DNA of 64,000 nt from Geothrix oryzae. GTDB lineage: Bacteria > Acidobacteriota > Holophagae > Holophagales > Holophagaceae. The stretch's first letter is position 1. Every line of letters starts with the position of its first letter. Positions 8,867-27,491 of the stretch are shown here, one piece after another. The notes beneath the pieces are model-generated. The model saw only the letters and a program-made list of their open reading frames with translations. It did not search any database and was not told the DNA's origin. The position numbers and the translations under genes are program-made. Location of the stretch: positions 992,001 through 1,056,000 of the forward strand of contig NZ_AP027079.1 in NCBI RefSeq assembly GCF_030295385.1, read 5' to 3'.

Positions 8867-8984
8867 GGGGCGACTCCGGACGCACTCATGATGGTGCCAA
8901 AAAGTGTAAATGAACGGACAGAACTCCCCCTTTTTGAGAGGCCATCCCGGCGACTACGCTGTCAGCGAGTCCTCAGGAGCCGAC

Positions 8985-10028
8985 ATGCACGCGAGCCTTC
9001 AGCGCCTGAAGACCTACCTGCTCTGCGGCGTCTCCCATGTGATCCCCTTCGTGGCCTGCGGCGGCATCCTCATCGCCGTGGCCATCGCCTTCGCCCCCAT
9101 GCGGCCCGGTACCGGCCCGGACTTCAGCCAGGCCCCGACCCTGAAGGTGATCATGGACATCGGCCTGGCCGCGTTCTCCCTGGTGGTCCCCGTGCTGGCG
9201 GGCTACATCGCCTTCGGCATGGCCGACCGTCCGGGCCTGGTGCCCGGCTTCGTGGGCGGCTTCATCTCCAATGCGGTGGGGGCCGGGTTCCTGGGGGGGC
9301 TCGCGGCGGGCCTCCTGGCGGGCGGCGTGGTCCTGCTGTTGAGGCGGCTGCCGATCCACCGGCTGCTGCGGCCCATCATGCCCATCCTGGTGATCCCCGT
9401 GCTGTCCTCCCTGGTGGTGGGTCTGATCATGTACGGCCTGCTGGGGGCGCCCATCAAGGGACTCATGGCCTGGCTGGCCCAGGCGCTCCAGAACCTGGGC
9501 AGCGGCAACCAGGTGCTCCTCGGCCTGGTGCTGGGCGCCATGATCGCCTTCGACATGGGCGGGCCCGTGAACAAGGCGGCCTTCTTCTTCGGGGTGGCCA
9601 TGATCAGGGAGGGCCATGTGGGCGTCATGGGCGCCTGCGCCGCCGCCATCTGCATCCCCCCCCTGGGCCTGGGCCTGGCGACGCTGCTCGCACCCCACCG
9701 CTGGTCGGACAGTGAGCGCGAGTCGGGCCTCGCGGCCCTGGCCATGGGCGCCATCGGCATCACGGAAGGGGCCATCCCCTTCGCCGCCGCCGACCCCGTC
9801 CGCGTGATCCCCACCATCATGGGCGGCTCCGCCCTGGGTGCCGTCATCGCCATGCTGGGCAGCGTGGGGGACCATGCGCCCCACGGCGGATTGATCGTCC
9901 TGCCCGTGGTGGAGCACCGGCTCTGGTACCTCGCCGCGATCGCCATCGGCACCCTGGCCGTCGCCGTAACCCTCAACCTCCTGCGGGCCCCCGCCCGCTC
10001 CGCCCAGCCTTCCGTGGAGGCCCCATGA
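8985..10028 (+). CDS. PTS fructose-family transporter subunit IIC
   Basis: A 347-residue inner-membrane permease of the fructose/mannitol PTS superfamily with about nine hydrophobic segments. Diagnostic stretches are SHVIPFVACGGILIAVAIAF, the loop AFDMGGPVNKAAF, GITEGAIPFAAADPVRVIP and GDHAPHGGLIV. The ATG at 8985 has AGGAG eight bases upstream and begins where family members begin; the frame is open from 8910. IIC stands alone here, with IIB next and IIA fused to EI. Subunit IIC forms the sugar channel; which sugar it takes is not certain. Confidence 0.93.
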   Translation: MHASLQRLKTYLLCGVSHVIPFVACGGILIAVAIAFAPMRPGTGPDFSQAPTLKVIMDIGLAAFSLVVPVLAGYIAFGMADRPGLVPGFVGGFISNAVGAGFLGGLAAGLLAGGVVLLLRRLPIHRLLRPIMPILVIPVLSSLVVGLIMYGLLGAPIKGLMAWLAQALQNLGSGNQVLLGLVLGAMIAFDMGGPVNKAAFFFGVAMIREGHVGVMGACAAAICIPPLGLGLATLLAPHRWSDSERESGLAALAMGAIGITEGAIPFAAADPVRVIPTIMGGSALGAVIAMLGSVGDHAPHGGLIVLPVVEHRLWYLAAIAIGTLAVAVTLNLLRAPARSAQPSVEAP

Positions 10029-10321
10029 AGATCCTCGCCATCACGGCTTGCCCCACCGGCATTGCCCATACCTACATGGCCGCCGAGCAGCTGGAACGCA
10101 CGGGCAAGCAGCTCGGCCATGCCATCAAGGTGGAGACGCAGGGCGCCATGGGCATCGAGAACCGGCTGACCGAAGCGGATGTGGCGGGCGCCGACGCCGT
10201 CATCCTGGCCTCGGACCTGCCCGTGCAGGGTCGGGAGCGCTTCGCCGGCATCGCCCGGATCCTCGAGGTTCCCGTGCAGCTGGCCATCAAGAACCCGGCC
10301 GAGATCTTCGCGCGTCTCTAG
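10025..10321 (+). CDS. PTS fructose-family subunit IIB
   Basis: A 98-residue cytosolic phosphocarrier. The phosphorylated cysteine is Cys9 in ITACPTGIAHTYMAAEQLE, the signature of fructose-type IIB, followed by KVETQGAMGIENRLT. The start overlaps the IIC stop (ATGA), indicating translational coupling. It should accept phosphate from the IIA domain of the next gene product and pass it to the sugar as IIC transports it. Confidence 0.95.
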   Translation: MKILAITACPTGIAHTYMAAEQLERTGKQLGHAIKVETQGAMGIENRLTEADVAGADAVILASDLPVQGRERFAGIARILEVPVQLAIKNPAEIFARL

Positions 10322-10332
10322 GGCGGTTCGGG

Positions 10333-12840: not shown

Positions 12841-12872
12841 GACCACCCCGCCACGCCACTCCAGGAGCCCCC

Positions 12873-15800
12873 ATGCGCCTTCTCCGCACCGCCGCCCTCA
12901 CCGGCCTGGGCCTTGCGCTCGCGGCCGCACCTCCGGACCTGTCGAAGGAGCGGACCCTCTATGTGATGAACTACTCCCACCTGGACACCCAGTGGCGCTG
13001 GTCCTATCCGCTGGTGGTCCGGGAGATGCTGCGGAACACGCTGTACGACAACTTCGCGCTGATGGAGCAGCACCCGGAGTATGTCTTCAACTGGAGCGGC
13101 GCGGGCCGCTACCAGATGTTCCAGGAGTATTTCCCGGGCGAGTACGCAAGGCTGAAGGGATATGTGGCCAAAGGCCAGTGGTTCCCCGCGGGCTCCGCCT
13201 GGGAGGAATCGGATGTGAATGTGCCGTCCTCGGAATCCCTGATCCGCCAGCTGCTGCTGGGCCACACCTTCTTCAAGCGGGAGTTCGGCACCGAAAGCTC
13301 CGAGTACATGCTGCCCGACTGTTTCGGCTTTCCGGCCTCCCTGCCGTCGATCCTGGCCCACTGTGGTCTGAAGGGCTTCTCCACCCAGAAGCTCACCTGG
13401 GGATCGGCCAACGGCGTGCCCTTCAATGTGGGCCGATGGGAGGGCCCCGACGGCCGCTCGATCATCGCGGCCCTGAACCCGGGGAGCTACGATGCGCACC
13501 TCACCACGCCCCTCACGGGCGAGGCCTGGGTGAAAAGGCTGGATGCCAACGGCGTCGCCAGCGGCCTGAAGGTGGACTACCTCTACAACGGCAACGGGGA
13601 CGAGGGGAGCGCGCCCTTCGACGACTCGCTGCGGACCCTGTGGCAGGGCCTCGCGGCCAAGGGCCCGGTGAAGGTGATCGCCGGGCGGGCCGACCTGATG
13701 TTCGAGGCCATCACCGAGGCCCAGAAGGCCAAGCTGCCGGGCTACAAGGGGGACCTCCTGCTCACCCAGCACTCCGCGGGCTCTCTCACCTCGGCCGCCT
13801 TCATGAAGCGGATGAACCGGCAGGACGAGCTGCTGGCGGACGCGGCCGAAAAAGCCTCGGTGGCCGCCGACCTGCTCCAGGCCAGCCCCTATCCGGCCAC
13901 GACCCTCGAGAAGGCCTGGGGCCTCATGCTGAGGAACCAGTTCCACGACATCCTGCCGGGCACCAGCCTGCCCAAGGCCTACGAATACTCCTGGAACGAC
14001 GGACTCCTCGCCGCCAAGGCCTTCGAGGGCATGCTGGGGGACGCCGTGGGCGCCGTGGCCCGGGGTCTGGATACGCGCGTGGAGGGCGTGCCGATCGTGG
14101 TCTACAACGCCCTGGGCATCGCCCGGATGGATCTGGTGGAGGCCCTGCTTCCTCCTGAACTCGAAGCCGAACCCCAGGTCACGGCCGTGGATGCCGCGGG
14201 CGCGGTTCTTCCCACCCAGATGACGACGGGGCCTGATGGCCGCCGCCGGGTGCTGTTCCAGGCCCATGTGCCCAGCCTGGGCTTCGCGGTGTACGGCCTG
14301 CGGCCCGGCAAGGCCCCCGCGGGCGACGAGCTGAAGGTGCAGGGGCGCATGGCGGAGAATGCCCGCTACCGCGTGAAGCTCAATGAGGCCGGGGACATCG
14401 AGAGCGTGTTCGACAAGGAACTCAAACGTGAGCTCCTGTCCGCACCCGCCCGTCTGGCCTTCCAGCATGAGAAGCCCCAGCGCTGGCCGGCCTGGAACAT
14501 GGATTGGGCCGACCGCCAGAAGCCGCCCCGCGCCCATGTGTCCGGCCCTGCCGCCATCCGCGTCAGCGAGGACGGGCCTGTCCGCGTCGCCCTGGAGGTG
14601 ATCCGCGAAAGCGAGGGCTCACGCTTCGTCCAGACCATCCGGCTCGCCGCCGGGGCCGCGGGGGACCGCGTGGAGGTCGCGAACCTCGTGGACTGGAAGA
14701 CCTCCGAGGCCAGCCTGAAGGCCACCTTCCCCCTGGCCGCCGCCCAGGCGAAGGCCACCTACAACCTGGACCTGGGCACCCTCGAGCGGGGCAACAACGA
14801 CCCGAAGAAGTACGAAGTGCCCACCCACGGCTGGATGGACCTCACGGACGCCCAGGCTGGGTACGGCGTGACCCTGCTGACCGGCGCCAAGTACGGCACC
14901 GACAAGCCCGATGACCACACCCTGCGGCTGACGCTGCTCTACACGCCGGGCGTCGGCAAGGACTACCGCGAACAGCGCTGGCAGGACTGGGGTCGCCACA
15001 GCTTCACCTACGGCCTGGCGGGGCATTCCGGGGGCTGGCAGGGCGCGCCCTGGCTGGCCCTGCGTCAGGATCAGCCCCTGGCCGCCTTCGCCGTCCCCAA
15101 ACACGCGGGCCCGCTCGGCCGCAGCTTCAGCCTCCTGCGCACCTCCACGCCGGATGTGGCCATCCAGGCGCTCAAGCGGTCGGAGGATGGCACGGCCATC
15201 GTGGTCCGCCTCCAGGAGCTCCGGGGCTCCCAGGCTGAAATCGATCTCAGGGCCGCGGGTCCGATCCGCAGCGCGAAGGAACTGGATGGCCTCGAGCGAC
15301 CCCTGGCCGAGCTGCCGCTGGGAAAGGGAACCCTGAACCTGGCCTTCAGGCCTTACCAGCTGCGGACGATCGGCTTGCAGGTGGAGACGCCCGCTCGGCT
15401 GGCATCGCCCTCGGCGCAGCCCCTGCCGCTCCCGTTCGATGCGGCGGTCTTCAGCACCAACTCGAGCCGCATGGAGGGCGGGGCCATGGAGCCCTACGCG
15501 AGCTACCCCTCGGAAATGATGGGTGAGGCGGTGGAAGCCGGCGGCATCCGCTTTCAGATGGGCCAACGCGGCGATGGCCAGAAGAATGCGCTCACCTGCG
15601 CAGGCCAGACCCTGGCCCTTCCCGAGGGAACGATGCGGGCGCACCTGCTGGTGGCCGCGACCAGCGAGGATGTGAAGGCCGCTTTCATGGCCGGGGACCG
15701 GGTCGAGCAGGTGGAGGTCCCACGCTGGACCGGCTATCTGGGTTCCTGGGACAACCGCGTGTTCAAGGGCGAGGTCGATGAGAAGACCTACTCGATCAAC

Positions 15801-16094
15801 AACGACCTGGAGCGCATCGCGCCTGCCTTCCTGAAGGCCGGCCGGCCGGTCTGGTGGGCCTCCCATCGCCATGCCAAGGGCCAGGACGATGTCTATGCGT
15901 ACAGCTACCTGTTCGCCTTCGCCGTGGACCTCCCGGCCGGAGCCCGGACCCTGACGCTTCCCAAGGATTCGCGGGTGAAGGTCTTCGCGGTCACGACCAC
16001 GGCGCTGGACAACGCCGGCATTCGTCCGCTGCAGCCCCTGTTCCCGGATCTGGCCCGGGATGCCTCCTTCGGGAGCCGCTTCAACAAACCCTAG
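12873..16094 (+). CDS. Exported GH38 alpha-mannosidase-like glycosidase
   Basis: A 1073-residue protein with a short signal peptide (LRTAALTGLGLALAAA) and then a GH38 catalytic domain. The zinc/substrate motif is HLDTQWRW (His36, Asp38). The nucleophile is Asp149 in LPDCFGFP. Further GH38 landmarks are a conserved RNQFHDILPGTSLPKAYEY stretch near residue 350 and a long beta-rich C-terminal half. GH38 enzymes hydrolyse terminal alpha-mannosides with a zinc-bound active site. The gene starts 32 bases after the PTS fusion gene, so the sugar released outside the inner membrane is probably what the PTS imports. Unlike E. coli MngB (the mannosylglycerate pathway), this protein appears to be exported. 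Confidence 0.9.
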   Translation: MRLLRTAALTGLGLALAAAPPDLSKERTLYVMNYSHLDTQWRWSYPLVVREMLRNTLYDNFALMEQHPEYVFNWSGAGRYQMFQEYFPGEYARLKGYVAKGQWFPAGSAWEESDVNVPSSESLIRQLLLGHTFFKREFGTESSEYMLPDCFGFPASLPSILAHCGLKGFSTQKLTWGSANGVPFNVGRWEGPDGRSIIAALNPGSYDAHLTTPLTGEAWVKRLDANGVASGLKVDYLYNGNGDEGSAPFDDSLRTLWQGLAAKGPVKVIAGRADLMFEAITEAQKAKLPGYKGDLLLTQHSAGSLTSAAFMKRMNRQDELLADAAEKASVAADLLQASPYPATTLEKAWGLMLRNQFHDILPGTSLPKAYEYSWNDGLLAAKAFEGMLGDAVGAVARGLDTRVEGVPIVVYNALGIARMDLVEALLPPELEAEPQVTAVDAAGAVLPTQMTTGPDGRRRVLFQAHVPSLGFAVYGLRPGKAPAGDELKVQGRMAENARYRVKLNEAGDIESVFDKELKRELLSAPARLAFQHEKPQRWPAWNMDWADRQKPPRAHVSGPAAIRVSEDGPVRVALEVIRESEGSRFVQTIRLAAGAAGDRVEVANLVDWKTSEASLKATFPLAAAQAKATYNLDLGTLERGNNDPKKYEVPTHGWMDLTDAQAGYGVTLLTGAKYGTDKPDDHTLRLTLLYTPGVGKDYREQRWQDWGRHSFTYGLAGHSGGWQGAPWLALRQDQPLAAFAVPKHAGPLGRSFSLLRTSTPDVAIQALKRSEDGTAIVVRLQELRGSQAEIDLRAAGPIRSAKELDGLERPLAELPLGKGTLNLAFRPYQLRTIGLQVETPARLASPSAQPLPLPFDAAVFSTNSSRMEGGAMEPYASYPSEMMGEAVEAGGIRFQMGQRGDGQKNALTCAGQTLALPEGTMRAHLLVAATSEDVKAAFMAGDRVEQVEVPRWTGYLGSWDNRVFKGEVDEKTYSINNDLERIAPAFLKAGRPVWWASHRHAKGQDDVYAYSYLFAFAVDLPAGARTLTLPKDSRVKVFAVTTTALDNAGIRPLQPLFPDLARDASFGSRFNKP

Positions 16095-16262
16095 CCTTCA
16101 TGGCTTCGCCAGGGCTCTGATGAATGGCCTGTTGCAAAGGCATGCCCATTTCTGGCCTGATCCTGCGCAACCTGGCATCCGCTCGTTGGCCCGGCCTACG
16201 CTGACAAGGGGCTAGGATTCCGCGTGGCACTGGGTTCGCCAAGGACATCCTGAGGCCATGGA

Positions 16263-17387
16263 TTATGCGCTCAAGGTCAGCTTGAGGTCCTGGCCGAGGA
16301 TCTCCGAGATGCGGAGGGAGGACCGGCCATCCCCGTACGGGAAGCGCGGTTTGGCCATGTCCGCATACGCCTGCTCATCGGTCCACAGGCGCTCAACTTC
16401 TTCCTCGAACCTGGCCGGGTCGCTGCCAACGAGGCGCACCCCGCCAGCCTCCACGGCTTCGGGCCGTTCCGTCACATCCCGAAACACGAGCACGGGCTTT
16501 CCGATGGCGGGCGCTTCTTCCTGGATGCCGCCACTGTCGGTGAGCACGAGGTGCGCCTCCCGCATCACTGCTACCAACTCCGGGTAGTCCAGGGGCTCGA
16601 TCAGGTCCACATTCGGAAGTCCTCCGAGAATCTCCCAGGCCGGGCCCTGCACATTCGGGTTGGGGTGGACGGGGTACACGAGGCGAGCCGACGGGTGCCG
16701 CAGGGCGAAGCGCCGCAGCGAACCCAGGATGGCCCGAAGCGGCTCGCCGAAGTTCTCGCGCCGGTGCAGGGTGATCAACACCCGCCGATGGCCCGGTTCC
16801 AGAGGGCGAAGGGTGGGAGGCAAGGCCAGGTCTGCCCTGGCCGATGTGGCCAGCAGGGCATCAATGACGGTGTTGCCGACCACATGGATGTTCGAGTCAT
16901 GGGTGCCCTCTTTCAGCAGGGCGAGGCGGGAGGTCTCCGTCGGGGCAAAGTGCCAGTTGGCCAAGGGAGCGGTGAGGCGCCGCATACCTTCTTCGGGGAA
17001 AGGCGATTTCAGGTCCCCACTTCGCAAGCCAGCTTCCACATGACCAAACGGGATGCTTGAGTAATAAGCAGCCAGCGCCGAGCAGAACACCGTGGTCGTG
17101 TCCCCTTGGGCGAGCACCGCGTCGGCATTGGACGCCTGGAAGATCTTGGCGAGGGCGGGCACCAGGCGGCCCGTCAGATCGGGAAGGCTCTGGCCGGGAC
17201 GCATGGCGTCGAGATCCCAATCCGAGCTCAACTGGAAGGTGGCCATCATCTGATCGAGCATGCCGCGGTGCTGCGCGGTGGCCAGCACCTTCACATCCAG
17301 GCCCATGCCGCTGAGCGCCTTGACGACCGGGGCCATCTTGATCACTTCGGGCCGGGTGCCCATCACGCAAATCACTTTCTTGGACAT
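16263..17387 (-). CDS. wecB: UDP-N-acetylglucosamine 2-epimerase (non-hydrolysing)
   Basis: A 374-residue WecB/MnaA-family epimerase that interconverts UDP-GlcNAc and UDP-ManNAc. Family hallmarks are VICVMGTRPEVIKMAPVV at the N-terminus, VLAQGDTTTVF, FGHVEAGLRSGDLKSPFPEEGMRRL, ITLHRRENFGEPL and LTDSGGIQEEAPAIGKPVLVFRDVTERPEA. The start at 17387 is preceded by TTGGAG. It is the last gene of the exopolysaccharide operon, 18 bases after the GH113-like gene. This context says it supplies UDP-ManNAc to the NfrB-like synthase, as WecB does in the E. coli NfrAB pathway. Confidence 0.95.
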   Translation of the reverse strand: MSKKVICVMGTRPEVIKMAPVVKALSGMGLDVKVLATAQHRGMLDQMMATFQLSSDWDLDAMRPGQSLPDLTGRLVPALAKIFQASNADAVLAQGDTTTVFCSALAAYYSSIPFGHVEAGLRSGDLKSPFPEEGMRRLTAPLANWHFAPTETSRLALLKEGTHDSNIHVVGNTVIDALLATSARADLALPPTLRPLEPGHRRVLITLHRRENFGEPLRAILGSLRRFALRHPSARLVYPVHPNPNVQGPAWEILGGLPNVDLIEPLDYPELVAVMREAHLVLTDSGGIQEEAPAIGKPVLVFRDVTERPEAVEAGGVRLVGSDPARFEEEVERLWTDEQAYADMAKPRFPYGDGRSSLRISEILGQDLKLTLSA

Positions 17388-17405
17388 GGGGACTCCAATC
17401 TTCCT

Positions 17406-18701
17406 CTATCGGTTTTCAGGATTTGCCGCGCCGTTGGATGGAACACCCGGTGATGCCACCGCTCCGCGGCCCGCGGCAACGCGCGTTGGAACCACCGGCG
17501 GTGTCCGGTCTGGCTTGAAGGTCTGGATGTATTCCGCGGCCGAGGGGGCAAGGTCGTAGGGCGTCGCCACGGGGTGCCCGATGGGGAACAGGGAAAAGCC
17601 CAGGAACATGCGCGTATCCCGGGGGAATGTCTCGAGGTAGGCGGAGAGGTAGTTCTTCTGGATCTCCGCGTTGACGGTCTGGCTGGCCGAGGGATCCCAG
17701 GGGGTCTCCGCGCCGTATTCCACCGCCGGGCAACTCAGCTCGCCCAGGAAGATGGGCTTGCGCCACTTCTCATGCAGCGCCATGACCTCTGCCACCACAT
17801 TCTGTTTCCGGTTGAACACGGTCGTGGATTGCAGGGCCGCCTTGATCTCGTCGACGGTCGGGGCGCTGGCATCGCTCAGTTCGAAATAGGAGGCGACCCC
17901 GATGACATCCACCACCCCGAAGATGGGGTTGCCCAGCTTGGCCTGATAGGCGGCGAGCGTGTCCGGCTTCTGGGGCACGGTCGACCACCACTGGGTGCGG
18001 TAGATCAAGTTGCCCCGGAAGGTTTCCCGCTGTCTTTGGATGAGGGAGATCCAGTGTTCGGACTCGCCCTCCAGCTTCACCAGGTTAGACGCCACATACA
18101 TGCCCCAGACCTTGGGGAACTCCCGGCCGATTTGAGCCAGGGCCTTCGAGTAGGAGTCGAACCAGGCGGCCTTGTCCTCGGGGTCCAGGGCGGTTTCGGG
18201 CACCCTGCCATCTGCGATCCATGGGTAGGGCTCGATGATGAGGCGGTAGGCCCCTCCCAGCGCCACGACCTTCCTGGCGAAGGCGAGGCTGGGTTCATCC
18301 AGCCGGACTTCCGACGCGTTGGCGGTGGCCATGTCCACCCGCACAGGAATCGTGAGGGTGTTCAAGTTGAGCCGTTTGGCATCGGCCAGAGCCTTCTTGG
18401 CATCCGTGGTGTTCCACGCGGAGACATTGCCACCCTTGATGAATCCGGATGTGTTGGCTGCCTGGCTGGGGCCGGGCTTGGTTTCCGGTTTTCGCTTGGC
18501 CTGGGCTGAGTGAAGGGCCTGGATGGGCGCCAGCAGGGCCACTGCCGCGAGCAGCATGGCGCGGCCCCTTGTCCCGGTGTGGCGCCACAAGCCTGGAATC
18601 AGGCGGCCGGGCCGGGATGAGCTCGCAAGATAAACCGGGCTTGTCGGATCCATTCCGGGAAGCTCATGGCCGTCTTGCAAACGCGCTTGGTGATGCTTCA
18701 C
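17406..18701 (-). CDS. GH113-like exported TIM-barrel protein, possibly lacking the acid/base glutamate
   Basis: A 431-residue protein with a hydrophobic export segment at ~49-68 (MLLAAVALLAPIQALHSAQA), then a clan-A glycosidase-like barrel: FIKGGNVSAWNTTDA, NLNTLTIPVRV, YRLIIEPYP, DVIGVASYFEL and a C-terminal strand FLGELSCPAVEYG with candidate nucleophile Glu321. Where GH113 mannanases have an IGTEL/GNEL acid/base glutamate, this protein reads VASNLVKLE (Asn206). If that alignment holds, it may bind glycan without cleaving it, or use another residue. The GTG at 18701 has GGAG upstream; an ATG at 18557 would give a classical signal peptide. It sits between the NfrA-like and wecB genes in one operon, so a role in processing or tethering the exported polymer is likely. 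Confidence 0.65.
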   Translation of the reverse strand: MKHHQARLQDGHELPGMDPTSPVYLASSSRPGRLIPGLWRHTGTRGRAMLLAAVALLAPIQALHSAQAKRKPETKPGPSQAANTSGFIKGGNVSAWNTTDAKKALADAKRLNLNTLTIPVRVDMATANASEVRLDEPSLAFARKVVALGGAYRLIIEPYPWIADGRVPETALDPEDKAAWFDSYSKALAQIGREFPKVWGMYVASNLVKLEGESEHWISLIQRQRETFRGNLIYRTQWWSTVPQKPDTLAAYQAKLGNPIFGVVDVIGVASYFELSDASAPTVDEIKAALQSTTVFNRKQNVVAEVMALHEKWRKPIFLGELSCPAVEYGAETPWDPSASQTVNAEIQKNYLSAYLETFPRDTRMFLGFSLFPIGHPVATPYDLAPSAAEYIQTFKPDRTPPVVPTRVAAGRGAVASPGVPSNGAANPENR

Positions 18702-18727
18702 AACTGTCTCCGATCAGAGGAAGGCCT

Positions 18728-20410
18728 CTAAAACCATCCGGTCAGGGTCAGGAACAAACCCTTGCCCCGGTCCGCGCTGCCCAGCTGCGCTCGGGCCTGA
18801 AGGGTCAGCTCCAGCCAGCTGGCCGGCGCATGGTGCCGGTCCTCCCGGAACCAATGGCGCAGGGAGGCACCGATGCCGAATCCGCCGGCGTACCGAGGGT
18901 TCACCCGGTTGTCGAAATCCCCCGCCAGGACCAGGTGCGGGGCCAGCATGTCCCGCCCGTCGCTGGTCTTCATGCGCCAGGCGTGGCCGGCTCGGACTTC
19001 GAGCTGATGCACATATTGGCCGGTCTTGGCAAAGGCGGCCCCTTCCGTGAACAGGCGCCAATAGTTCCAGTCGCGTTCCCAGGGCCGAAGGTCCAGCCCA
19101 GCATCCGCGGAGTAGGCAGCCCGGAACATCCAGTCGTTCAGAGAGAGGCGCCCGAGCGCCACCAGCTTTTCGGCCGTGAACACCACATTTTCGGAGCTGA
19201 AGGGCTTGGCCCGGACCCCGACGACCCCCTGCAGCGTGGGACCGCCCGTGGTGGCCGAGTTTCCGCTGTAGAGGTTTTCGAAGACCTGGGCGAAGACCTG
19301 CACCATGCGGCCATTCTGCGCCAGGAACTCCGGCTGCCAGTAGGCCTCCAGGCCCTGTTGAAGGAGCTTGTCCCGGGAGGCCACGCCAGGGAGGAGGATG
19401 CTTTGCCGGTAGAAGCTGCCAGACGCTAGACCCCAGGACCGGCTCAGGGTTTCCACTTCCCGCCGCAGGCCGTAGTCGAACTCCGGTGAAGTCTGGCCCG
19501 AGGCCCTGCGCGCATCCATGCCCCGGGTGAAGTACCGCACCGCCTCGGAATTCTTTCCGAGGCGCTTGGCGGCATAGGCGGCGTCGAGCCAGGTCCCCGG
19601 AAGGCTCTGATCATCCAGCCCAGCGGAGAAATGATCGAGGGCTTCGGCATCGCGGTGCCGGCCCACATACGCATAGGCCAGCTCCAGCGCCGCGTGGCGG
19701 TCCTGCGGGTTGAGCCTGCGAAGGTCTTCCAGGGCCCTCAGCTCAAGGTCGGCCTGGTTGGTTTTTCGCGCCGCGTCGCAAAGCCCCTGCAGCAGCGTAC
19801 GCCGCTGGTCTGCATCCGGGGAGAGCTGCAACGCATCCTGGAAGGCCTGGCAGGCTGAAGCGTGATGGCCATCGGCGAGCAGCAGGAAGGCCCGGCGGGC
19901 TTGAACGCCAAGCTCAGCCTCTCCGGAATGGGGCATCAGAACCTTCAAGGCTTCGGTGTGTCTGCCCTGGGCCTGGAACAGGTCGGCCAGGACCAGCCGG
20001 GTCTGGCGGCGGTCCCCGGGAGAAATTCCAGAATCCCCCTCGAGCTGTGTCGCATCCTCAAGGGCTTCGGCCAACCGGCCTTGACGCTGCCTGAGGTAGA
20101 TCCGGAACAGCCGGAGTTTGGCATCCCCCGGGGCTTTCGCCAGGAGGTCTTCGTTCAACGCATCCGCCTCGGGCAGAGAGCCTATCGCGTAGAGCAGGTC
20201 CCGCTTGAGGGCGAGCAGCTGCGGGTGTTCTTTGGACTTGGCCAGGGCCGCGTCCACCAGGCTCAGAGCCCCCGCCAGGTCATGGGCCGCCTGAAGGCGG
20301 TAGGACTCTTCGGCCAGCCGGTAGGCCTCCCCGCGCAAGGGTGGCGTCTGTGATCGAGCCATGGGACCAAGGAGCAGGAAGACACAGAAACCGGTGAAAC
20401 ATCGGTGCAT
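18728..20410 (-). CDS. NfrA-like TPR and outer-membrane beta-barrel protein (polysaccharide export)
   Basis: A 560-residue protein with an N-terminal signal sequence (FTGFCVFLLLGPMARS). About 320 residues of TPR-like helical pairs follow (for example AHDLAGALSLVDAALAKSKE, AEALEDATQLEGD). The C-terminal ~200 residues are beta-rich and match the NfrA C-terminal domain pattern: RPWERDWNYWRLFTEG, GIGASLRHWFREDRHHAP, and a terminal strand ending in Phe. E. coli NfrA is longer (~990 residues). TPR-plus-barrel proteins (BcsC, PgaA, PelB, NfrA) thread polysaccharides across the outer membrane. It lies 40 bases after the NfrB-like gene. The ATG at 20410 is chosen because the signal peptide starts there. 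Confidence 0.82.
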   Translation of the reverse strand: MHRCFTGFCVFLLLGPMARSQTPPLRGEAYRLAEESYRLQAAHDLAGALSLVDAALAKSKEHPQLLALKRDLLYAIGSLPEADALNEDLLAKAPGDAKLRLFRIYLRQRQGRLAEALEDATQLEGDSGISPGDRRQTRLVLADLFQAQGRHTEALKVLMPHSGEAELGVQARRAFLLLADGHHASACQAFQDALQLSPDADQRRTLLQGLCDAARKTNQADLELRALEDLRRLNPQDRHAALELAYAYVGRHRDAEALDHFSAGLDDQSLPGTWLDAAYAAKRLGKNSEAVRYFTRGMDARRASGQTSPEFDYGLRREVETLSRSWGLASGSFYRQSILLPGVASRDKLLQQGLEAYWQPEFLAQNGRMVQVFAQVFENLYSGNSATTGGPTLQGVVGVRAKPFSSENVVFTAEKLVALGRLSLNDWMFRAAYSADAGLDLRPWERDWNYWRLFTEGAAFAKTGQYVHQLEVRAGHAWRMKTSDGRDMLAPHLVLAGDFDNRVNPRYAGGFGIGASLRHWFREDRHHAPASWLELTLQARAQLGSADRGKGLFLTLTGWF

Positions 20411-20450
20411 GGGCGGCTCGGAGACGATCAGGGCGCGGTGGGAATGGACG

Positions 20451-22553
20451 CTAAGTGGCGGGGGTGGGCTGCAATCCCAAGTGGAGGTGGGCTCCAGAAG
20501 GATGAAGCCCGATCGGCTGGGGGTTGGTGATGTGGCGATCGGCCAAAAACAGTTGCAGTTTCCCGTGGCTCGAATAGGAGTAGTCCGCCAAGGCTGATCC
20601 AAGCAGGACAGGGGAGATTTCAATCTTCAGATCCAGGATGTGCTCCAGGCGGTCCGCCAGGGCCTGATCGAACATCTCGGCGGAAGATCCTCCGAGGATC
20701 ATGTAGGCCAAGGCGCACAGGGCCTCGCTCTCCGTGATGATGAAGAACCTCGGAGCGGTCTGAAGGTGCACCAGGGCTTCTGCCATGGCCGCTTCCAAAG
20801 GAGGCGCCGACACGCCCAGGAGCAGTTCCTCATGCTCCCCGACCCCCAGGGGGACCCATCTGTGATGGATGGCGAGGCTGTGGGGCAGCAGGTTCCGGGT
20901 CTGTTCGAGGACAGCCATGTTGAGGCTGCTGCGCGGGAGGTCGGCCTGGAAGGCGATGGCGTCCGCCAGGTTGGCTTCGGATACCCCATACCGTTCCATG
21001 AGGATGCTGCCCAGCTGGCGCCCGGTGATCTCCTGCTCGGTGAGGGCGGCATCCAGGTGGCCCTCCTCCAGTTCATTCCACTGGAAGAGGATCTCGCCCA
21101 GTTTGGCGCGGAAAGGCCGCAATTCGGGGCCGGTGGGATAGGCGTGGGCCGTCTTGTCCCATGCCAGGGCCACGCCCGTGATCCTGTGCCGCAGGTACTG
21201 CTTCCAGGCCCGGGTGGCGGCCATGAAGTTGATCACGTTGCTGACGAGGACGCGGGGGATGGCGAGCAGGCCATGGGTGACGCCGTACAATCGGTTCACG
21301 AAGATGAAGCGCTGCAGCACGCGGTTCACCATGAACACGGCATTGACCTGCATGAGGCGGGTCAGCCAGCTGCCCTGGGCGAATCCTGGTGGCAGGGGGG
21401 GAACATGCAGGCCCATGCGGCCAAGGAACGTGAGTGTGCCGATGCACGCCAGAAGGGCGTAGGCCAGGATCGTCACCAGGCTGGTGAATACCCCTTTGCG
21501 ATCCCGGAACATGAAGTATTTGGTCTTCAGATCGCCTTTCCACCCCATGGCCTCCCAGCCCTGGAGCGCGATTCCGAGAATCCAGCGGGTCCGTTGACGA
21601 TAGGCGGTACGAAAGGTGGACGGGAAGAATTCGCGAACCCCCAGGAGGTCGTAGCGTTCGACTTTCCGTTCGCCCCACCATCCCTTCTCGTAGGCCGTGT
21701 AGTGAAAGGGGATCTTCACGAAGGACTGTTTCAAACCGAACTTCTTCAAACGGAAGCTGAAGTCGTAATCCTCGGTCAGGGTCGCCGTGTTGAAGGGAGA
21801 ATCCCCGGTTTCCGCCATGAGCGCCGCAAGGGCCCTGCGCGAGTAGCACATCCCGGTTCCGGCGCAGGGCACCAGTCCCGTGAGGCTCTCGCGGACGACC
21901 ATGTCCTTCGAGTGACACTCGGCGAAGTCATCCTGGTAGGTCCCCGCCACCAATTGGTACCACTCGCGCTCCAGGCTGAGCACCGGGAGCTGGATGAGGT
22001 CCATGCGGTCAATGAAGTGGTTGAAGACCTTGAGTTCCAGGGGGTGGATCACATCTTCTGAATCGTGGATCACCACCCCGGAAAAGGGACGACCGGTCTG
22101 CTCCTCGTGCCGGAATACCGCCTGGATCAGGAAATTCAGACAGTCGGCCTTGCAGGTGGGGCCAGGATGGGGCACATCCACCCGGCGCACATTGCGGTAC
22201 CGGCGGGCCATGCGGTCCACCTCGGTTTGGGTCTCACTGTCGTTGACATAAGTGCCGACGAAAATCAGGTAATTGCAGTACTTCATGTTGGCATTGGTGT
22301 TCTCGATCATGCTTGCGATGACATCGAACTCTTTCCAGGCCGGGACCATGATCGCGAAGTGCGCCTCCTCCCGATCCTGAAGCTGCTCGAGCCCGAAGGG
22401 GGCGTGCCTGCGCGCGACCGTGGACTTTCGGTACAGGACCCGGATCCAGAAATAGGCGTCAATGAACACATCATCGAGGCTGCTCACAAGGATGAGCAGG
22501 TTCACGAAGACCACCAGACCGAATAGCACCTGCATGAATGGTTCCATTGGCAT
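20451..22553 (-). CDS. NfrB-like inner-membrane GT2 glycosyltransferase with C-terminal MshEN domain
   Basis: A 700-residue predicted exopolysaccharide synthase. It has an N-terminal TM segment (8-25), then a GT2 domain with FAIMVPAWKE, the DxD-like HDSED (Asp164-Asp167), the acceptor motif TED (260-262) and QRTRW (320-324), the set used by processive GT2 synthases. TM helices follow to about residue 450. From ~484 comes an MshEN (GspE_N) domain with two tandem motifs: KLGEILF...LDAALTEQ, then four residues, then RQLGSILM...LADAIAFQ. This is the known c-di-GMP-binding arrangement. E. coli NfrB (~745 residues) has the same layout. Two nearby in-frame ATGs (22553, 22547) are equally possible starts. 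Confidence 0.88.
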   Translation of the reverse strand: MPMEPFMQVLFGLVVFVNLLILVSSLDDVFIDAYFWIRVLYRKSTVARRHAPFGLEQLQDREEAHFAIMVPAWKEFDVIASMIENTNANMKYCNYLIFVGTYVNDSETQTEVDRMARRYRNVRRVDVPHPGPTCKADCLNFLIQAVFRHEEQTGRPFSGVVIHDSEDVIHPLELKVFNHFIDRMDLIQLPVLSLEREWYQLVAGTYQDDFAECHSKDMVVRESLTGLVPCAGTGMCYSRRALAALMAETGDSPFNTATLTEDYDFSFRLKKFGLKQSFVKIPFHYTAYEKGWWGERKVERYDLLGVREFFPSTFRTAYRQRTRWILGIALQGWEAMGWKGDLKTKYFMFRDRKGVFTSLVTILAYALLACIGTLTFLGRMGLHVPPLPPGFAQGSWLTRLMQVNAVFMVNRVLQRFIFVNRLYGVTHGLLAIPRVLVSNVINFMAATRAWKQYLRHRITGVALAWDKTAHAYPTGPELRPFRAKLGEILFQWNELEEGHLDAALTEQEITGRQLGSILMERYGVSEANLADAIAFQADLPRSSLNMAVLEQTRNLLPHSLAIHHRWVPLGVGEHEELLLGVSAPPLEAAMAEALVHLQTAPRFFIITESEALCALAYMILGGSSAEMFDQALADRLEHILDLKIEISPVLLGSALADYSYSSHGKLQLFLADRHITNPQPIGLHPSGAHLHLGLQPTPAT

Positions 22554-22648
22554 TTGACACGCGCCCGGCGCGGCCCCTCGAAGTTTTGAGATACACGATT
22601 AGAGCTTTCGGAATGAAAGTCCCCGTTCCACGGGATTCCCTGTTGGAT

Positions 22649-24772
22649 TCAGTTCGTGATGGAACCTGCGGCGACGAATGTCCAGCCCTGAACCTTCAGG
22701 CCATCCACGATCTCGGTCAGCATGGGCGTTCCCAGATACGGATGGTAGAAGAAGCTTGCAAAGCCATCCCTGATCACCAGGTTCTTCTGGGCCGTGGTGA
22801 GGATGTCGGCCGGCAGGCGCGGAGGATGGTTGTTGAAGGCCACCGGCTCGACATTGCCCAGGTTCTCCGGGATGACGAAGGAACCGTAGATGTCCTTCAC
22901 CGGATAGGGGAAGAACTGGCCGTTCAGCCGGCTGTAGCTGATCGCTCCGCCGCTGAGAATGCCCCCGAAATAGAGACCACGGTCGTACCGCTTGGGGAAG
23001 AGGGCGAGGATGGCCTTGTAGTCGGGAACCGAGGCCGCGTAGTGCGGCGGCTCGAAAATGGTGGGGACCGTCAACCCCGCCCGGGTGAATGCGTTCATCC
23101 CGGACTTGATGCGACTGGTGGCCCATACCTGGGAGTCGCCCGGCACCGGGCCGTCATACACCACATTGTTGGCAGAATCGATGTGCGCGATGAAGAACTC
23201 GAAGTCATCGGCACTGGCCCCCGAGTAGGGGTTCAGGAGTTTGGAGAACTGATGGGTGTAGCCATGCATGAGAAGGGTTCCGCCCCTGGACTGCATGTAC
23301 TTCAGGGCCGAAACAACGGTGGGGCGGTTCACTAGATCGTAGGAGGTCGCGACGCCTCCGTTGTAGGTGCCGTTGGGATCGCGGTATCCGGGGTAGACCG
23401 CCACGGAGAACGGCACTGCGCGTGCGAAGAGCGCATCGGCGACGGCCCTCAGTTCCGCGGGATCGGCATCAGGTCCCACATCTTCGATCCGGACCAGGGC
23501 ACGGTGCCGGGTGGCCGCGGCGGGGTTGTAGACGGCGTAGAGCAGGTCCGCGAAGGCCAGGTAGCGATCGTTGGGGCTGACATAGGAGAAGGGGATTTCG
23601 GTGAAGTAGTAGAACTGGCCGCTCTGGACGACCCAGGGGATCGTGGTGCCATCCGTGCGCTGGGCCGTGGCCAGCGCCTGGGCCTTGGACGGGTCGGCAA
23701 GGGTGGTTCCCATGATGCCGCCCCCGTTCAGAAGGTCGCGGTCCAGCTGGGTGCCCTTGTACTGGACGCTGGGGATCTGGCTGAAATCGAAGCCAGTCCA
23801 TGTCCATCCGGTCGTGCCCGGGAAATCGGCGAACTCCGCCGTGAGTTGCCAGATGTTGTCGTACATCCACAGCACCGGGATCGTGGTGGCCCGGACATCT
23901 GCCAAAAAAGCCAGGGGCAGGGGCTCATCGTAGGTGGAGCCGATGTAGACCACCGCGGTGAAGCCAGCCATCTGCCCGGCCACATAGGTCCCCACGGGGA
24001 TCGCCTTCCAGGTGCCGAAGTGGGAGACCAGGTTGGCGGTCTGCTGGGCGTAGAGTTCGCCCAGGAATCCCCAGGGGCCGGTGGAATCGTAGAGGATCAG
24101 CGTGTTGGGGGAGGCCGCCAGGGCGGCGCCGGACACGGTCAAGCTCCTGAGACGATCCTGGAGTTCATGTTTGGATGGGCCAGCCCAGGGCGCCAGGCGA
24201 GGGCGGCCGATCGCGGGAACCTGTTGCGGGGGCCGCGGCGGAGCGGGCAGCTGGGTACCCGCGGTGGTGCTGACTTTCCCGGCCGCATCGGCGATCGGGC
24301 CGTTGGGTTTTGAGGGAGGAGTTGCGTCCTGGTTGAAGGTCACGCTAATGCTTTGAACTGGGGTCTGAACGGGGGCTTGAACAGGCCGGGCCGCGGTGGC
24401 GCGGATGACGCCAGAGCCAGCCATGAGGGGCTCCAGGCCCGGATCCGGCGAGGAACTGGGTTGGGTGCCTTTAGCCGGTTCCATGGGCAGGGAATCGTCC
24501 GCATTTTCGGATGGTGTGGTTGGCGCGGGAACCACTTCCGGAGACTGCTTGGCCGGTTCAGATGGCGCGGGAGCCTTCTCCGATGACTGCTTGGCCGGTT
24601 CGGGTGTGGCCGGTTGACGGGGAGCTGTCTTGGTCGCCGGCTTTGCTGGGAGGGGCTGGGGCTGCTCCTCTCGGCCATAGGCAGGGCTTAGGGCGACCAA
24701 ACTGGAAAAAAGAATTGAAAATAAGTCTGTTAGGCGAAAAATAACCACCTCCGGGCATAGGTTACGGGCCAT
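22649..24772 (-). CDS. DUF2334-domain polysaccharide deacetylase-like exported protein
   Basis: About 707 residues. An N-terminal signal sequence (LFSILFSSLVALSPAYG) leads into a Pro/Ala/Glu/Lys-rich linker to about residue 130. An uncharacterised alpha/beta domain follows, then a C-terminal DUF2334-type barrel: VRIEDVG (Glu430, Asp431), MHGYTHQ (His503, His507), EPPHYAAS and FFYHPYLG. These resemble the carboxylate/HxxxH metal site of carbohydrate esterase 4 deacetylases. It is first in the operon, 95 bases before the NfrB-like gene, so N-deacetylation of the HexNAc polymer (as PgaB does for PNAG) is a reasonable guess. The ATG at 24772 lacks a clear ribosome-binding site, so the start is uncertain. 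Confidence 0.78.
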   Translation of the reverse strand: MARNLCPEVVIFRLTDLFSILFSSLVALSPAYGREEQPQPLPAKPATKTAPRQPATPEPAKQSSEKAPAPSEPAKQSPEVVPAPTTPSENADDSLPMEPAKGTQPSSSPDPGLEPLMAGSGVIRATAARPVQAPVQTPVQSISVTFNQDATPPSKPNGPIADAAGKVSTTAGTQLPAPPRPPQQVPAIGRPRLAPWAGPSKHELQDRLRSLTVSGAALAASPNTLILYDSTGPWGFLGELYAQQTANLVSHFGTWKAIPVGTYVAGQMAGFTAVVYIGSTYDEPLPLAFLADVRATTIPVLWMYDNIWQLTAEFADFPGTTGWTWTGFDFSQIPSVQYKGTQLDRDLLNGGGIMGTTLADPSKAQALATAQRTDGTTIPWVVQSGQFYYFTEIPFSYVSPNDRYLAFADLLYAVYNPAAATRHRALVRIEDVGPDADPAELRAVADALFARAVPFSVAVYPGYRDPNGTYNGGVATSYDLVNRPTVVSALKYMQSRGGTLLMHGYTHQFSKLLNPYSGASADDFEFFIAHIDSANNVVYDGPVPGDSQVWATSRIKSGMNAFTRAGLTVPTIFEPPHYAASVPDYKAILALFPKRYDRGLYFGGILSGGAISYSRLNGQFFPYPVKDIYGSFVIPENLGNVEPVAFNNHPPRLPADILTTAQKNLVIRDGFASFFYHPYLGTPMLTEIVDGLKVQGWTFVAAGSITN

Positions 24773-24792
24773 GGACACTGGGCGCAGGTGTT

Positions 24793-24808
24793 TTGACACA
24801 AGGGTCAA
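24793..24808. promoter_or_regulatory. Inverted repeat TTGAC-N6-GTCAA upstream of the exopolysaccharide operon
   Basis: A perfect 5-bp palindrome lies 21 bases before the proposed start of the DUF2334 gene, in the AT-rich divergent intergenic region. It could be a regulator site; each arm also reads TTGAC, like a -35 box, on its own strand. No convincing -10 is paired with it. Confidence 0.3.
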
Positions 24809-24871
24809 GTCGCAAAAAGTAGGTCATGTAAAGTATCGCGTCAAGGGGTTAAAAAATGTTTTTTTTACAAG

Positions 24872-24889
24872 TGTAGATTAATATCTACA
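24872..24889. promoter_or_regulatory. Palindrome TGTAGAT-TAAT-ATCTACA in divergent intergenic region
   Basis: An 18-base near-palindrome with perfect 7-bp arms, centred about 100 bases from the DUF2334 start and 70 bases from the small ORF at 24952. The surrounding 120 bases are markedly AT-rich compared with the rest of the window. This is the most operator-like site in the exopolysaccharide locus and could serve both directions. The binding protein is unknown. Confidence 0.45.
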
Positions 24890-24951
24890 TGGATTTTCTT
24901 GATGTATATGATAATCTTGTTTAAGGATAAAACACCTTGAAGGAGTGAGAA

Positions 24952-25098
24952 ATGTCGTTTTCTACTAGATCTTTAGGCGGACCTCCGCTTGGTCCCTGGA
25001 GCCTAGAAACCACTCCGGCCAAGCCCGACAGCCGACTGGCACCCGGGCCTGAAGGGTGGACCCTGCTCGGCGATGAAACTGAGCCTGGGATCATCTGA
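24952..25098 (+). CDS. Small ORF of unknown function (48 residues)
   Basis: An ATG with a strong AAGGAGTG ribosome-binding site 6-7 bases upstream opens a 48-codon frame ending TGA at 25096. The product begins MSFSTRSLGGPPLGPW and is Pro/Gly-rich, with no recognised domain, signal peptide or TM segment. The first eight codons are AT-rich, unlike the rest. It precedes the glycosidase lipoprotein gene on the same strand and may be a leader peptide or a genuine small protein. Only the ribosome-binding site supports it. Confidence 0.4.
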   Translation: MSFSTRSLGGPPLGPWSLETTPAKPDSRLAPGPEGWTLLGDETEPGII

Positions 25099-25165
25099 AC
25101 AGGAAGGACGCAGCCCCCCCTCCATGAGGGGCGCCTGCTTTACCTCATCTCCCAGGGAGCCTGCC

Positions 25166-26638
25166 ATGGCGGACCTGCATTCGAGCAAGGAAGGGTCAGT
25201 GACTCGGGTTCAGTGGAGGCGTTGGTCTGCGGGCCTGGTTGCCCTTTTCGCCGCGGCCCTCTTTTTTGCCTGCAGGGGAGGTGGAAACCATCAGGCCAGC
25301 CCCAGCCCCGCGGCCACCCACGCCATCGCGGGGTCGGTGGGCGGGGCTGTGCAGCAAGGGGTCGCCATCAACCTAACAGGCGCGGCGACCAGGACCGCGA
25401 CCACGGACGCGACTGGGACCTTCAGCTTCCCTGGCCTTCTGGACGGCGGCTATACCCTGACCCCAGCCCTTGCCGGCTACACCTTCACCCCGGCCTCCTC
25501 GGCCGTGACTGTGCTTGGCACAAATTCAACAGGGAACCGCTTCGTAGCCAGTGTTCCAACCGTCACCTACAGCATCAGCGGTTCAGTCAGTGGCGCGGTG
25601 CAGCAGGGCGTACTGATGAGGCTCGCGGGAGCGGCTTCCGCCACGACGACCACCGGCTCAAGCGGCAGCTACTCCTTCACGGGGCTCGCGAATGGCAGCT
25701 ATTCGGTCACCCCAAGCCTGTCGGGCTACGCCTTCACGCCCGCCAATTCAGCGGTGACCCTGAATGAGGCGAATGTTAGCGGCCAGAACTTCACCTCCTT
25801 GGCCAACCCACCACCTCTTCCAACCAGCTGGCTCTGGGGGGTGACTACCGATGACCCCGCCTCCAGCACGGCCCAGCAGGTGGATGCCCTGAAGTCCCTG
25901 CCGGTTCGCACCATGGTCCGGACAGTCTTTGACCTGGCTTCAGGCGGGCATCCCGCCGCGGTGGATTATGTGTCCTCCGTCACGGCACTCGCGACGGTGG
26001 CCGATGTGATGGGCCAGCCCGTGGATTCGTCCTACATGCCAGCCCTGACCCTGGCCGCGGTCCAGGCTCGCATCACCGAGTACCTGGGCACCCTCGGCCC
26101 GTTCGTGTCTGTTTGGGAAATCGGCAACGAGGTGAACGGGAACTGGCTGGGATCGGGCGTCATGCCCAAGCTCGAAGCGATGTTTGATGCTGTGAAGGCT
26201 GCCGGGAAGCCCACGGCCCTCACCTTCTACTACGAAAATCCGGCCACGCCAGGCTACGACCTCATCCCTTGGGCGGATGCCAACATTCCGCCCGGGCACC
26301 GCATGCGCACGGGACTCAATTATGTCTTGGTCAGCTACTACGAAGACCAGAACAATGGCCATCAGCTGACCCAGGCAGAATTGGATGCGCTATTTAGCGC
26401 TTTGGCCGCCCGCTTCCCCAACGCGAAACTCGGATTCGGCGAATTCGGCTGGGGCAACAGCATTCCCGCCTCCGCCACCACCCGGGCCGACATGCTCCGG
26501 CGGTTCTACGGCTACCGTATCCCCAGCGTGCCCGCCTATGTGGGCGGCGGGTTCTATTGGCATTTCCTCCAGACCATGGTGCCCAAGACCGCGCCGGATT
26601 GGTCCGTCCTCAACGACCTGGAGACTCAGGCCCCCTGA
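25166..26638 (+). CDS. Lipoprotein with two carboxypeptidase-regulatory-like repeats and a clan-A glycosidase-like domain
   Basis: A 490-residue protein. The N-terminal signal ends FFAC (Cys36), giving a probable lipoprotein followed by a Gly/Ser/Pro linker. Two tandem ~80-residue beta-sandwich repeats follow, each with a (S)GSVxGAVQQGV start, TGTFSF/SGSYSF and GYTFTPASSAVTV/GYAFTPANSAVTL. The C-terminal ~270 residues form a TIM-barrel glycosidase-like domain with VWEIGNE (acid/base Glu322) and LGFGEFGWG (nucleophile Glu426), the clan GH-A arrangement. The ATG at 25166 has GGGAG upstream. It is divergent from the exopolysaccharide operon and probably trims or remodels its polymer at the cell surface. 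The GH family is not certain. Confidence 0.78.
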   Translation: MADLHSSKEGSVTRVQWRRWSAGLVALFAAALFFACRGGGNHQASPSPAATHAIAGSVGGAVQQGVAINLTGAATRTATTDATGTFSFPGLLDGGYTLTPALAGYTFTPASSAVTVLGTNSTGNRFVASVPTVTYSISGSVSGAVQQGVLMRLAGAASATTTTGSSGSYSFTGLANGSYSVTPSLSGYAFTPANSAVTLNEANVSGQNFTSLANPPPLPTSWLWGVTTDDPASSTAQQVDALKSLPVRTMVRTVFDLASGGHPAAVDYVSSVTALATVADVMGQPVDSSYMPALTLAAVQARITEYLGTLGPFVSVWEIGNEVNGNWLGSGVMPKLEAMFDAVKAAGKPTALTFYYENPATPGYDLIPWADANIPPGHRMRTGLNYVLVSYYEDQNNGHQLTQAELDALFSALAARFPNAKLGFGEFGWGNSIPASATTRADMLRRFYGYRIPSVPAYVGGGFYWHFLQTMVPKTAPDWSVLNDLETQAP

Positions 26639-26920
26639 TCCCGGTCGCTGGCGGCGGTCTACACCGGCAGCAAGACGGCCATCGAGGGGTTCACGGGATC
26701 CCCCCTGGCCTTCGAGCTGGAGGCCTTCAGCCTGCGCGTGAAGCTGGTCGAACTGGGCTCCGCGCCGACGACGCGCTTCACCCTCAACGGCGGCAAGCGC
26801 ATGGAAGGGCTGATTCCCGAGGCCTATATGCCCTTCGCCGAGCGGGTCTTCGCCGCCTTTGCCCATCCGGCTGCGGTAACCCTTGAATCCGATGTGGCCG
26901 AGGCGGCGTGGCGCCCGGTG
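26639..26920 (+). pseudogene. Short-chain dehydrogenase remnant (5'-truncated)
   Basis: Immediately after the glycosidase stop, in the same frame, the sequence reads LAAVYTGSKTAIEGF, which holds the SDR catalytic YxxxK. It continues FELEAFSLRVKLVELG, MEGLIPEAYMPFAERVFAAF and VAEAAWRPV, the normal second half of an SDR. The Rossmann half with its TGxxxGxG motif is missing and the recognisable similarity fades by about 26920. There is no start codon or ribosome-binding site at the fragment start. It is therefore a decayed gene left by a rearrangement, not a working enzyme. Confidence 0.72.
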
Positions 26921-27303
26921 GCGCAGCCGGGAGTGAGGCCTGATTGGATGCCCGATTGGGTGGAGCCCTTCGCCTGGACGATCCACGCAGCCAAGAAGCC
27001 CATCGTGTCGGGCACCCTGGACCGGGTTGATTGGAGCGCTGAGCAGGTTTGCGGGGCTCTCTCAGCCTGTGGATTTGAAGCTCGGGAGCTGGCTGGAGTG
27101 CGGCTCGGGGGCCGTGGCCATGCGGTATGTGCCGAGACGATAGCTGTTCCCCTTGGTCCTTCGGCCTTGATCCACTGCGGAGGCCGCCGGGGGGCTGCCT
27201 CCGCAGTGGCGCTCGCCCGGCGACCGCCGTTCTCCGCCCTTCGTGCCGGCCCATGCTGTGACGATTTGAACGGGGTCCCGCTGCGCGGTCCCCGGTCTGC
27301 TCC
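26921..27303. other. Non-coding stretch with a 13-bp hairpin, no gene recognised
   Basis: No supported gene is seen here. It contains a perfect inverted repeat, CCACTGCGGAGGC (27172-27184) paired with GCCTCCGCAGTGG (27197-27209) around a 12-base loop. There is no T-run, so it is not a classical terminator. A weaker GGGG...CCCC hairpin lies near 27272-27294. Decay of the upstream SDR gene accounts for part of this stretch. Confidence 0.5.
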
Positions 27304-27357
27304 GGACGCGACATCAAGTCGCGTCCTCCACATCCCACTCGCAGGTCCAAATCCTGC
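27304..27357. other. Hairpin plus tRNA T-arm-like stem-loop
   Basis: A perfect 9-bp stem (GGACGCGAC, loop ATCAA, GTCGCGTCC; 27304-27326) is followed by GCAGG-TCCAAAT-CCTGC (27341-27357). The second element is identical to the T-arm of the nearby tRNA-fMet gene except for one loop base, but lies on the opposite strand. No acceptor stem or D-arm can be built around it, so it looks like a tRNA fragment or chance mimic and not a gene. Confidence 0.4.

Positions 27358-27414: not shown

Positions 27415-27491
<77 letters not shown>

Follow-up and report, generated by a model that had tools for sequence, protein, structure and literature searches.

The window analyzed in this study, a 64,000-nucleotide stretch (positions 992001–1056000) of the 3.27 Mb single-contig genome of Geothrix oryzae, harbors a gene cluster resembling the nfrBA system of Escherichia coli. 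With a probability of about 0.72, the cluster is a horizontally acquired NfrAB-type operon for a synthase-dependent polysaccharide, the product of which would be deacetylated by a DUF2334 protein and trimmed by a lipoprotein. Five closely spaced open reading frames (ORFs) were found on the minus strand at 16263–24772, where an earlier note made from the sequence alone had placed them, with intergenic gaps of 95, 40, 26, and 18 bp, and the five family assignments in that note were borne out by hidden Markov model (HMM) matches (PF10096, NF012033/NF053729, PF13283, PF22612, and TIGR00236). The note had ended the unit at 24772; it runs on, however, to an overlooked divergent gene at 25073–26638. 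The features of the locus are as follows.

22649–24772, minus strand: DUF2334 protein, 707 amino acids (aa) (PF10096, 5e-54)
20451–22553, minus strand: NfrB-type glycosyltransferase family 2 (GT2) synthase, 700 aa (NF012033 and NF053729, both above cut-off)
18728–20410, minus strand: NfrA-type outer-membrane export protein, 560 aa (PF13283, 1.4e-39)
17406–18701, minus strand: glycoside hydrolase family 113 (GH113)-like protein of the phage-tail-type subfamily (PF22612, 9e-17)
16263–17387, minus strand: WecB, non-hydrolysing UDP-GlcNAc 2-epimerase, for supply of UDP-N-acetylmannosamine (UDP-ManNAc) (TIGR00236, 429 bits)
25073–26638, plus strand: divergent predicted lipoprotein with a domain like those of glycoside hydrolase clan A (GH-A) (motifs; kept at 4/4 loci reaching that far)
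16095–27334, no strand: variable cassette, from the GH38 gene to tRNA-Met (alignment to genomes G040 and G297; GC content)
27415–27491, minus strand: tRNA-Met (cat), right edge of the cassette, 3' end facing the cassette (ARAGORN)

Synthase, Exporter, and Sugar-Supply Genes

The synthase scored 862 bits with the glycosyltransferase model NF012033 (cut-off 537) and contains, along with two hydrophobic membrane segments, the GT2 motifs HDSED (163–167), TED (260–262), and QRTRW (320–324), aligned with E. coli NfrB. Its C-terminal domain carries two 24-residue MshEN motifs, at 484 and 513, and all the motifs listed in the earlier note were thereby located. NF053729 recognized the MshEN domain (42.4 bits, cut-off 38), but its Pfam score was weak (PF05157, 19.4 bits, below the cut-off of 23.1); the domain also matched the solved domains of MshE and PilF (MshE 5htl, E = 5e-6). 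In the alignment, D164, D262, and W324 correspond to D169, D267, and W330 of E. coli NfrB, the loss of any of which abolishes complementation, and L485 and G486 correspond to the MshEN residues L490 and G491, which have also been mutated (PMC8669469). E. coli NfrB binds cyclic di-GMP (c-di-GMP), and WecB is required for infection by phage N4 (PMC8669469, PMC8669472). The Geothrix genome has 11 GGDEF matches, a count from which it is likely that a c-di-GMP signal is available in the host.

The exporter gene product matched PF13283 (NfrA_C) over profile positions 3–171 of 173 and contains tetratricopeptide repeats (TPRs) and a signal-like N-terminus; by PF13283 and the TPRs it falls in the NfrA group, as the earlier note had proposed. 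WecB scored more than its cut-off of 210 bits with TIGR00236, and its gene lies inside the operon, in the company of nfrBA. Linkage of wecB to nfr operons has already been reported, as has that of alginate-type acetylation genes and diguanylate cyclases (PMC8669469), and a ManNAc polymer has been proposed for NfrAB (PMC8669472). The reading of the operon as a predicted c-di-GMP-gated NfrAB-type system with a WecB of its own is thus well supported by protein families, catalytic residues, and both MshEN motifs. Two other Geothrix genomes encode NfrB proteins of 861–868 aa with a tandem-duplicated MshEN module (L036:9039-11624 in G311 and L021:8260-10866 in G244), which possibly provides two c-di-GMP sites per synthase.

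Conservation of DUF2334 With NfrBA and WecB

Among 47 genomes of the genus, NfrB was present in five, with two copies in one of them, giving six nfr loci; a separate scan of genome contigs recovered just one locus. DUF2334 was found in exactly the same five genomes. If the genes were independent, such co-occurrence would arise by chance once in 1.5 million, although linkage violates that assumption. Each of the six loci has adjoining NfrB and NfrA genes, neighbored by WecB and a DUF2334 gene; in one copy, WecB is on the opposite strand. The DUF2334 gene is upstream in four loci (69–84% identical), whereas in G244 and G311 a form of about 27–30% identity lies downstream of WecB. Since two diverged forms occupy opposite ends of the operon, DUF2334 appears to have been recruited or retained twice, and this is the best evidence for its probable membership in the pathway. 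The five genes had been expected to stay together as a unit. This holds for DUF2334 and WecB, which accompany NfrBA at 6/6 loci, but not for the GH113-like gene, which was found in the window genome only (1/47); none was present at the remaining five nfr loci in the genus, and at no other locus does such a gene lie between NfrA and WecB. In other Acidobacteriota (L027, L028, L029, and L030), NfrB-like GT2 proteins occur with no recognizable relative of NfrA, WecB, or DUF2334 alongside; these represent another lineage of the synthase.

The DUF2334 protein consists of an N-terminal hydrophobic segment, a Pro/Ala-rich linker, a domain at approximately 195–420, and a C-terminal deacetylase-like domain. 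The residues RxED (428–431), HGYTH (503–507), PPHY (575–578), RD (668–669), and HP (677–678) are of the types employed by metal-dependent polysaccharide deacetylases, and RxED, HGxTH, PHY, RD, and HP were invariant among eight DUF2334 sequences from three phyla. Comamonadaceae and Streptomyces also have DUF2334 genes within nfr or wecB-GT2 clusters; the Streptomyces relative, 45% identical, adjoins a GH113 gene and faces a wecB-GT2 pair. On a Burkholderia vietnamiensis plasmid (L048:8965-10608), two diguanylate cyclase genes flank a DUF2334 gene, with no annotated nfr gene nearby. These residues and associations suggest that the DUF2334 protein most probably deacetylates the polymer.

Glycosidase-Like Genes

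The divergent gene begins with a lipoprotein-like start followed by two CarboxypepD_reg-like domains and a C-terminal GH-A-like domain. The last contains WEIGNEVNG (348–356) and GFGEFGWG (454–461), a pattern that, judged from the motifs, would be that of the acid/base and nucleophile pair of clan GH-A. A Fusobacterium relative, 35% identical, keeps WEIGNEVNG and has a GEC motif. The gene was present and divergently oriented at all four of the six loci whose sequence extends that far. The domain matched no Pfam family and, by profile search, no significant PDB relative; its structure prediction from a two-sequence alignment had a mean confidence (pLDDT) of 43.5, and the Foldseek matches, all with E > 0.001, were not used. 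A comparison with PHROGs assigned none of three proteins to a family.

The E. coli operon had been described in the earlier note as having no glycosidase. This was not borne out, as ybcH, the third gene of nfrBA-ybcH, is annotated by NCBI in the glycosidase-like DUF4434 family. DUF4434 genes were also detected beside nfrBA in other proteobacteria (three clear, three more weak), and seven aligned members all keep two Glu residues (E144 and E245 in YbcH), as expected of a glycosidase-like barrel; a weak PDB match was to a putative alpha-L-fucosidase (E = 0.018). Hence, nfr operons ordinarily carry a glycosidase-like gene, and it is the DUF2334 deacetylase-like gene that is the true addition relative to E. 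coli. YbcH itself has been regarded as a putative scaffold (PMC8669469). PF14488 (DUF4434) had no match among the cassette genes, and profile comparisons gave no support for DUF4434 as a common ancestor of the GH113-like and divergent genes.

The GH113-like protein scored 61.9 bits with PF22612 (cut-off 27). Its ORF starts at GTG and a signal-peptide-like stretch opens at Met49; therefore, the true start may be downstream. The nucleophile is retained (GEL, Glu321), but the acid/base Glu at the end of strand 4 is replaced by Asn206; in PDB 7dvz the same column holds Ala, whereas it is Asn in most phage tail relatives and Glu in canonical GH113s. The closest relatives in the searched collections were Bacillus phage G gp673 (37%), a Paenibacillus larvae tail spike (35%), and a Lactobacillus phage tail protein (32%), the bacterial chromosomes covered being those within its own phylum, and bacterial members of the subfamily may therefore be more numerous than these results suggest. 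An alignment-based search of viral contigs recovered relatives on 17 contigs, and the protein as a single query matched none. Phylogenetic analysis grouped it with the phage relatives (100/100), separate from the canonical GH113s found in the same phylum and in Streptomyces. Owing to the absence of the acid/base Glu and the grouping with phage tail domains, GH113 activity cannot be assumed, and the working glycosidase that the earlier note had seen in this gene is not upheld. Canonical GH113 genes in two annotated plasmid cases lie in catabolic or surface-protein loci unrelated to nfr; hence, GH113 is no marker of an nfr-type system.

Mobile Nature and Origin of the Cassette

The block 16251–26638 has a GC content of 63% as against 69–70% in both flanks, and the six cassette genes have a GC content at third codon positions of 0.77–0.81, below the mean of 0.88 (p = 0.001). 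In G040, the nearest relative, with flanks 93–94% identical, the alignment runs to 16090, is followed by ∼550 bp of other sequence, and resumes at 27335. In G297, a 64% complete genome of the same species, position 8069 is followed by 27335, the GH38 and phosphotransferase system (PTS) genes being likewise missing. The stretch 8069–27335, left of tRNA-Met, thus looks like an insertion hotspot that differs among close relatives. In G311, ∼370 kb separates the nfr cassette from the peptidase gene that borders the cassette in the window. No direct repeats of 12 bases of the att type were found between the cassette edges. The NfrB tree placed the six proteins of the genus among proteobacterial ones, beside Burkholderia pyrrocinia (97/94), with which the window operon shares the order NfrB-NfrA-WecB, and apart from most other Acidobacteriota homologues; the tree is small and midpoint-rooted and does not settle the direction of transfer. 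It is probable that the cassette is transferable and was acquired horizontally beside tRNA-Met, being absent from the closest genomes.

A GH38 alpha-mannosidase gene (12873–16094, plus strand) adjoins the cassette. It probably lies outside the system since G040 has it in the absence of the cassette. Immediately after the stop of the divergent gene, a 5'-truncated fragment of a short-chain dehydrogenase/reductase (SDR)-like oxidoreductase (YTGSK..., 26640–27000, plus strand) was found, part of which has an 82% DNA match in G276; it is probably what remains of a gene at the edge of the cassette.

Proposed Pathway and Alternative Explanations

In the proposed pathway, WecB would supply UDP-ManNAc, which the NfrB-type synthase would polymerize through the inner membrane when its MshEN domain holds c-di-GMP, and the chain would be exported by the TPR/beta-barrel NfrA-type protein. 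In the periplasm, the DUF2334 protein would most probably strip some of the N-acetyl groups, giving a partly cationic, cell-retained polymer, a step analogous to those of PelA, PgaB, and Listeria PssB on their own polymers. Trimming or clearing of the polymer would probably fall to the divergent lipoprotein. For the GH113-like protein, an addition to the operon of one genome, a role as a binder or altered enzyme is more likely. Several observations weigh against this pathway. The synthase scored 572 bits with the NCBI NfrB equivalog model NF008411, below its cut-off of 1170, and having passed NF012033 it is therefore NfrB-type and not an ortholog by the NCBI model. Among the cassette genes, no periplasmic partner resembling BcsB or YbcH was recognized, and BcsB models had no match among the operon proteins. 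For DUF2334, the PDB profile search gave no solved relative below E = 0.08, and the structure predicted from a two-sequence alignment was of low confidence (pLDDT 34.7). UDP-ManNAc could also be one sugar among several.

An ordinary NfrAB system making plain poly-ManNAc, in which the DUF2334 protein serves for binding or as a scaffold in the role of BcsB or YbcH, is considered unlikely. The gene does occupy the position immediately upstream of the synthase that BcsB has in a number of proteobacterial nfr loci, and the literature search revealed no characterized DUF2334 enzyme, the domain being named in a survey of metagenomes for unknown-function domains; yet BcsB and DUF2334 are different families, and a scaffold would have no need of the acidic and His residues of deacetylase type that are invariant across three phyla. 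Since GH113 enzymes act on beta-mannans and ManNAc derives from mannose, the GH113-like protein could be an active endo-glycosidase that cuts the beta-ManNAc polymer of its own operon. The Pfam score, the retained nucleophile, and the Streptomyces plasmid on which a canonical GH113 gene adjoins DUF2334 and a wecB-GT2 pair favor such a role, which nevertheless appears doubtful given Asn206, shared with most phage tail relatives, the confinement of the gene to one of the 47 congeners, and the occurrence of canonical GH113s in unrelated loci as well. That the genes are unrelated passengers brought together on an island, as a low-GC cassette at a variable site might suggest, is highly improbable, for the same genes recur together at six loci with differing chromosomal sites and orders and also in other phyla. 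A bolder form of the favored deacetylation pathway can be put forward tentatively, in which the operon belongs to a non-enterobacterial NfrAB class with a dedicated DUF2334 deacetylase, a cross-phylum cassette that would convert poly-ManNAc to a cationic mannosamine polymer. In the window genome, a GH113 domain of phage-tail type with altered catalytic residues would have entered the operon of a glycan likely to be of phage-receptor type, perhaps to bind or shield the polymer. To our knowledge, a cationic mannosamine polymer is known as a matrix sugar in no Gram-negative bacterium.

Comparison With Known Polysaccharide Systems

The E. coli NfrBA-YbcH system with WecB, which makes the phage N4 glycan receptor (NGR; PMC8669469, PMC8669472), shares with the window operon a GT2-MshEN synthase, the catalytic and c-di-GMP motifs of that enzyme, and a TPR/barrel NfrA, and dependence on WecB is predicted for the window operon. 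In contrast to E. coli, the window operon has wecB inside it together with DUF2334 and contains no recognized DUF4434/YbcH, the divergent GH-A-like lipoprotein standing in its place; the E. coli system needs its accessory protein YbcH in part. The Burkholderia pyrrocinia plasmid is alike in gene order. On the Comamonadaceae plasmid CP099603 (wecB-NfrB-DUF2334-NfrA-DUF4434), both DUF2334 and a glycosidase-like gene accompany the nfr genes, although the synthase has no MshEN and the glycosidase-like protein is a DUF4434 member. The plasmid of Streptomyces sp. NBC_01237 (L049:2643-9656) carries adjacent wecB, GT2, DUF2334 (45% identical), and GH113 genes, but its GT2 is not NfrB-like (23%), MshEN and NfrA are absent, and its GH113 is canonical with the acid/base Glu present. 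This cluster, which includes an unannotated GH113 gene, is a possible Gram-positive polysaccharide cluster in its own right.

The Pga and Pel systems are comparable in logic, with a synthase, a periplasmic deacetylase and glycosidase, a TPR outer-membrane pore, and c-di-GMP control, but the families differ (PgaC model 16.5 bits, cut-off 422; PgaA model 17.4 bits, cut-off 367). The c-di-GMP receptor of the Listeria Pss system is a separate protein. PssB of Listeria is listed as a deacetylase of a beta-1,4-ManNAc polymer and PssZ as its cutting enzyme (PMC6307706, citing Koseoglu 2015), the latter belonging to GH126 (PMC7479077).

The combination had been called undescribed in the earlier note, and the literature search agreed, finding no paper that joins NfrAB with a DUF2334 deacetylase. 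The range of NfrAB, in 2021 described mostly from proteobacteria, is widened to Acidobacteriota, probably by transfer. A compact cassette with a WecB, a deacetylase-like gene, and a glycosidase-like gene of its own makes the identity of the polymer testable. The findings suggest that N-deacetylation and trimming are perhaps general in NfrAB-type systems and that YbcH is worth viewing as a glycosidase-like enzyme rather than a scaffold. The nearest precedent is Pss of Listeria monocytogenes, which is Gram-positive and has no NfrA but which is described as having a c-di-GMP-regulated beta-1,4-ManNAc polymer, a deacetylase, and a cutting enzyme.

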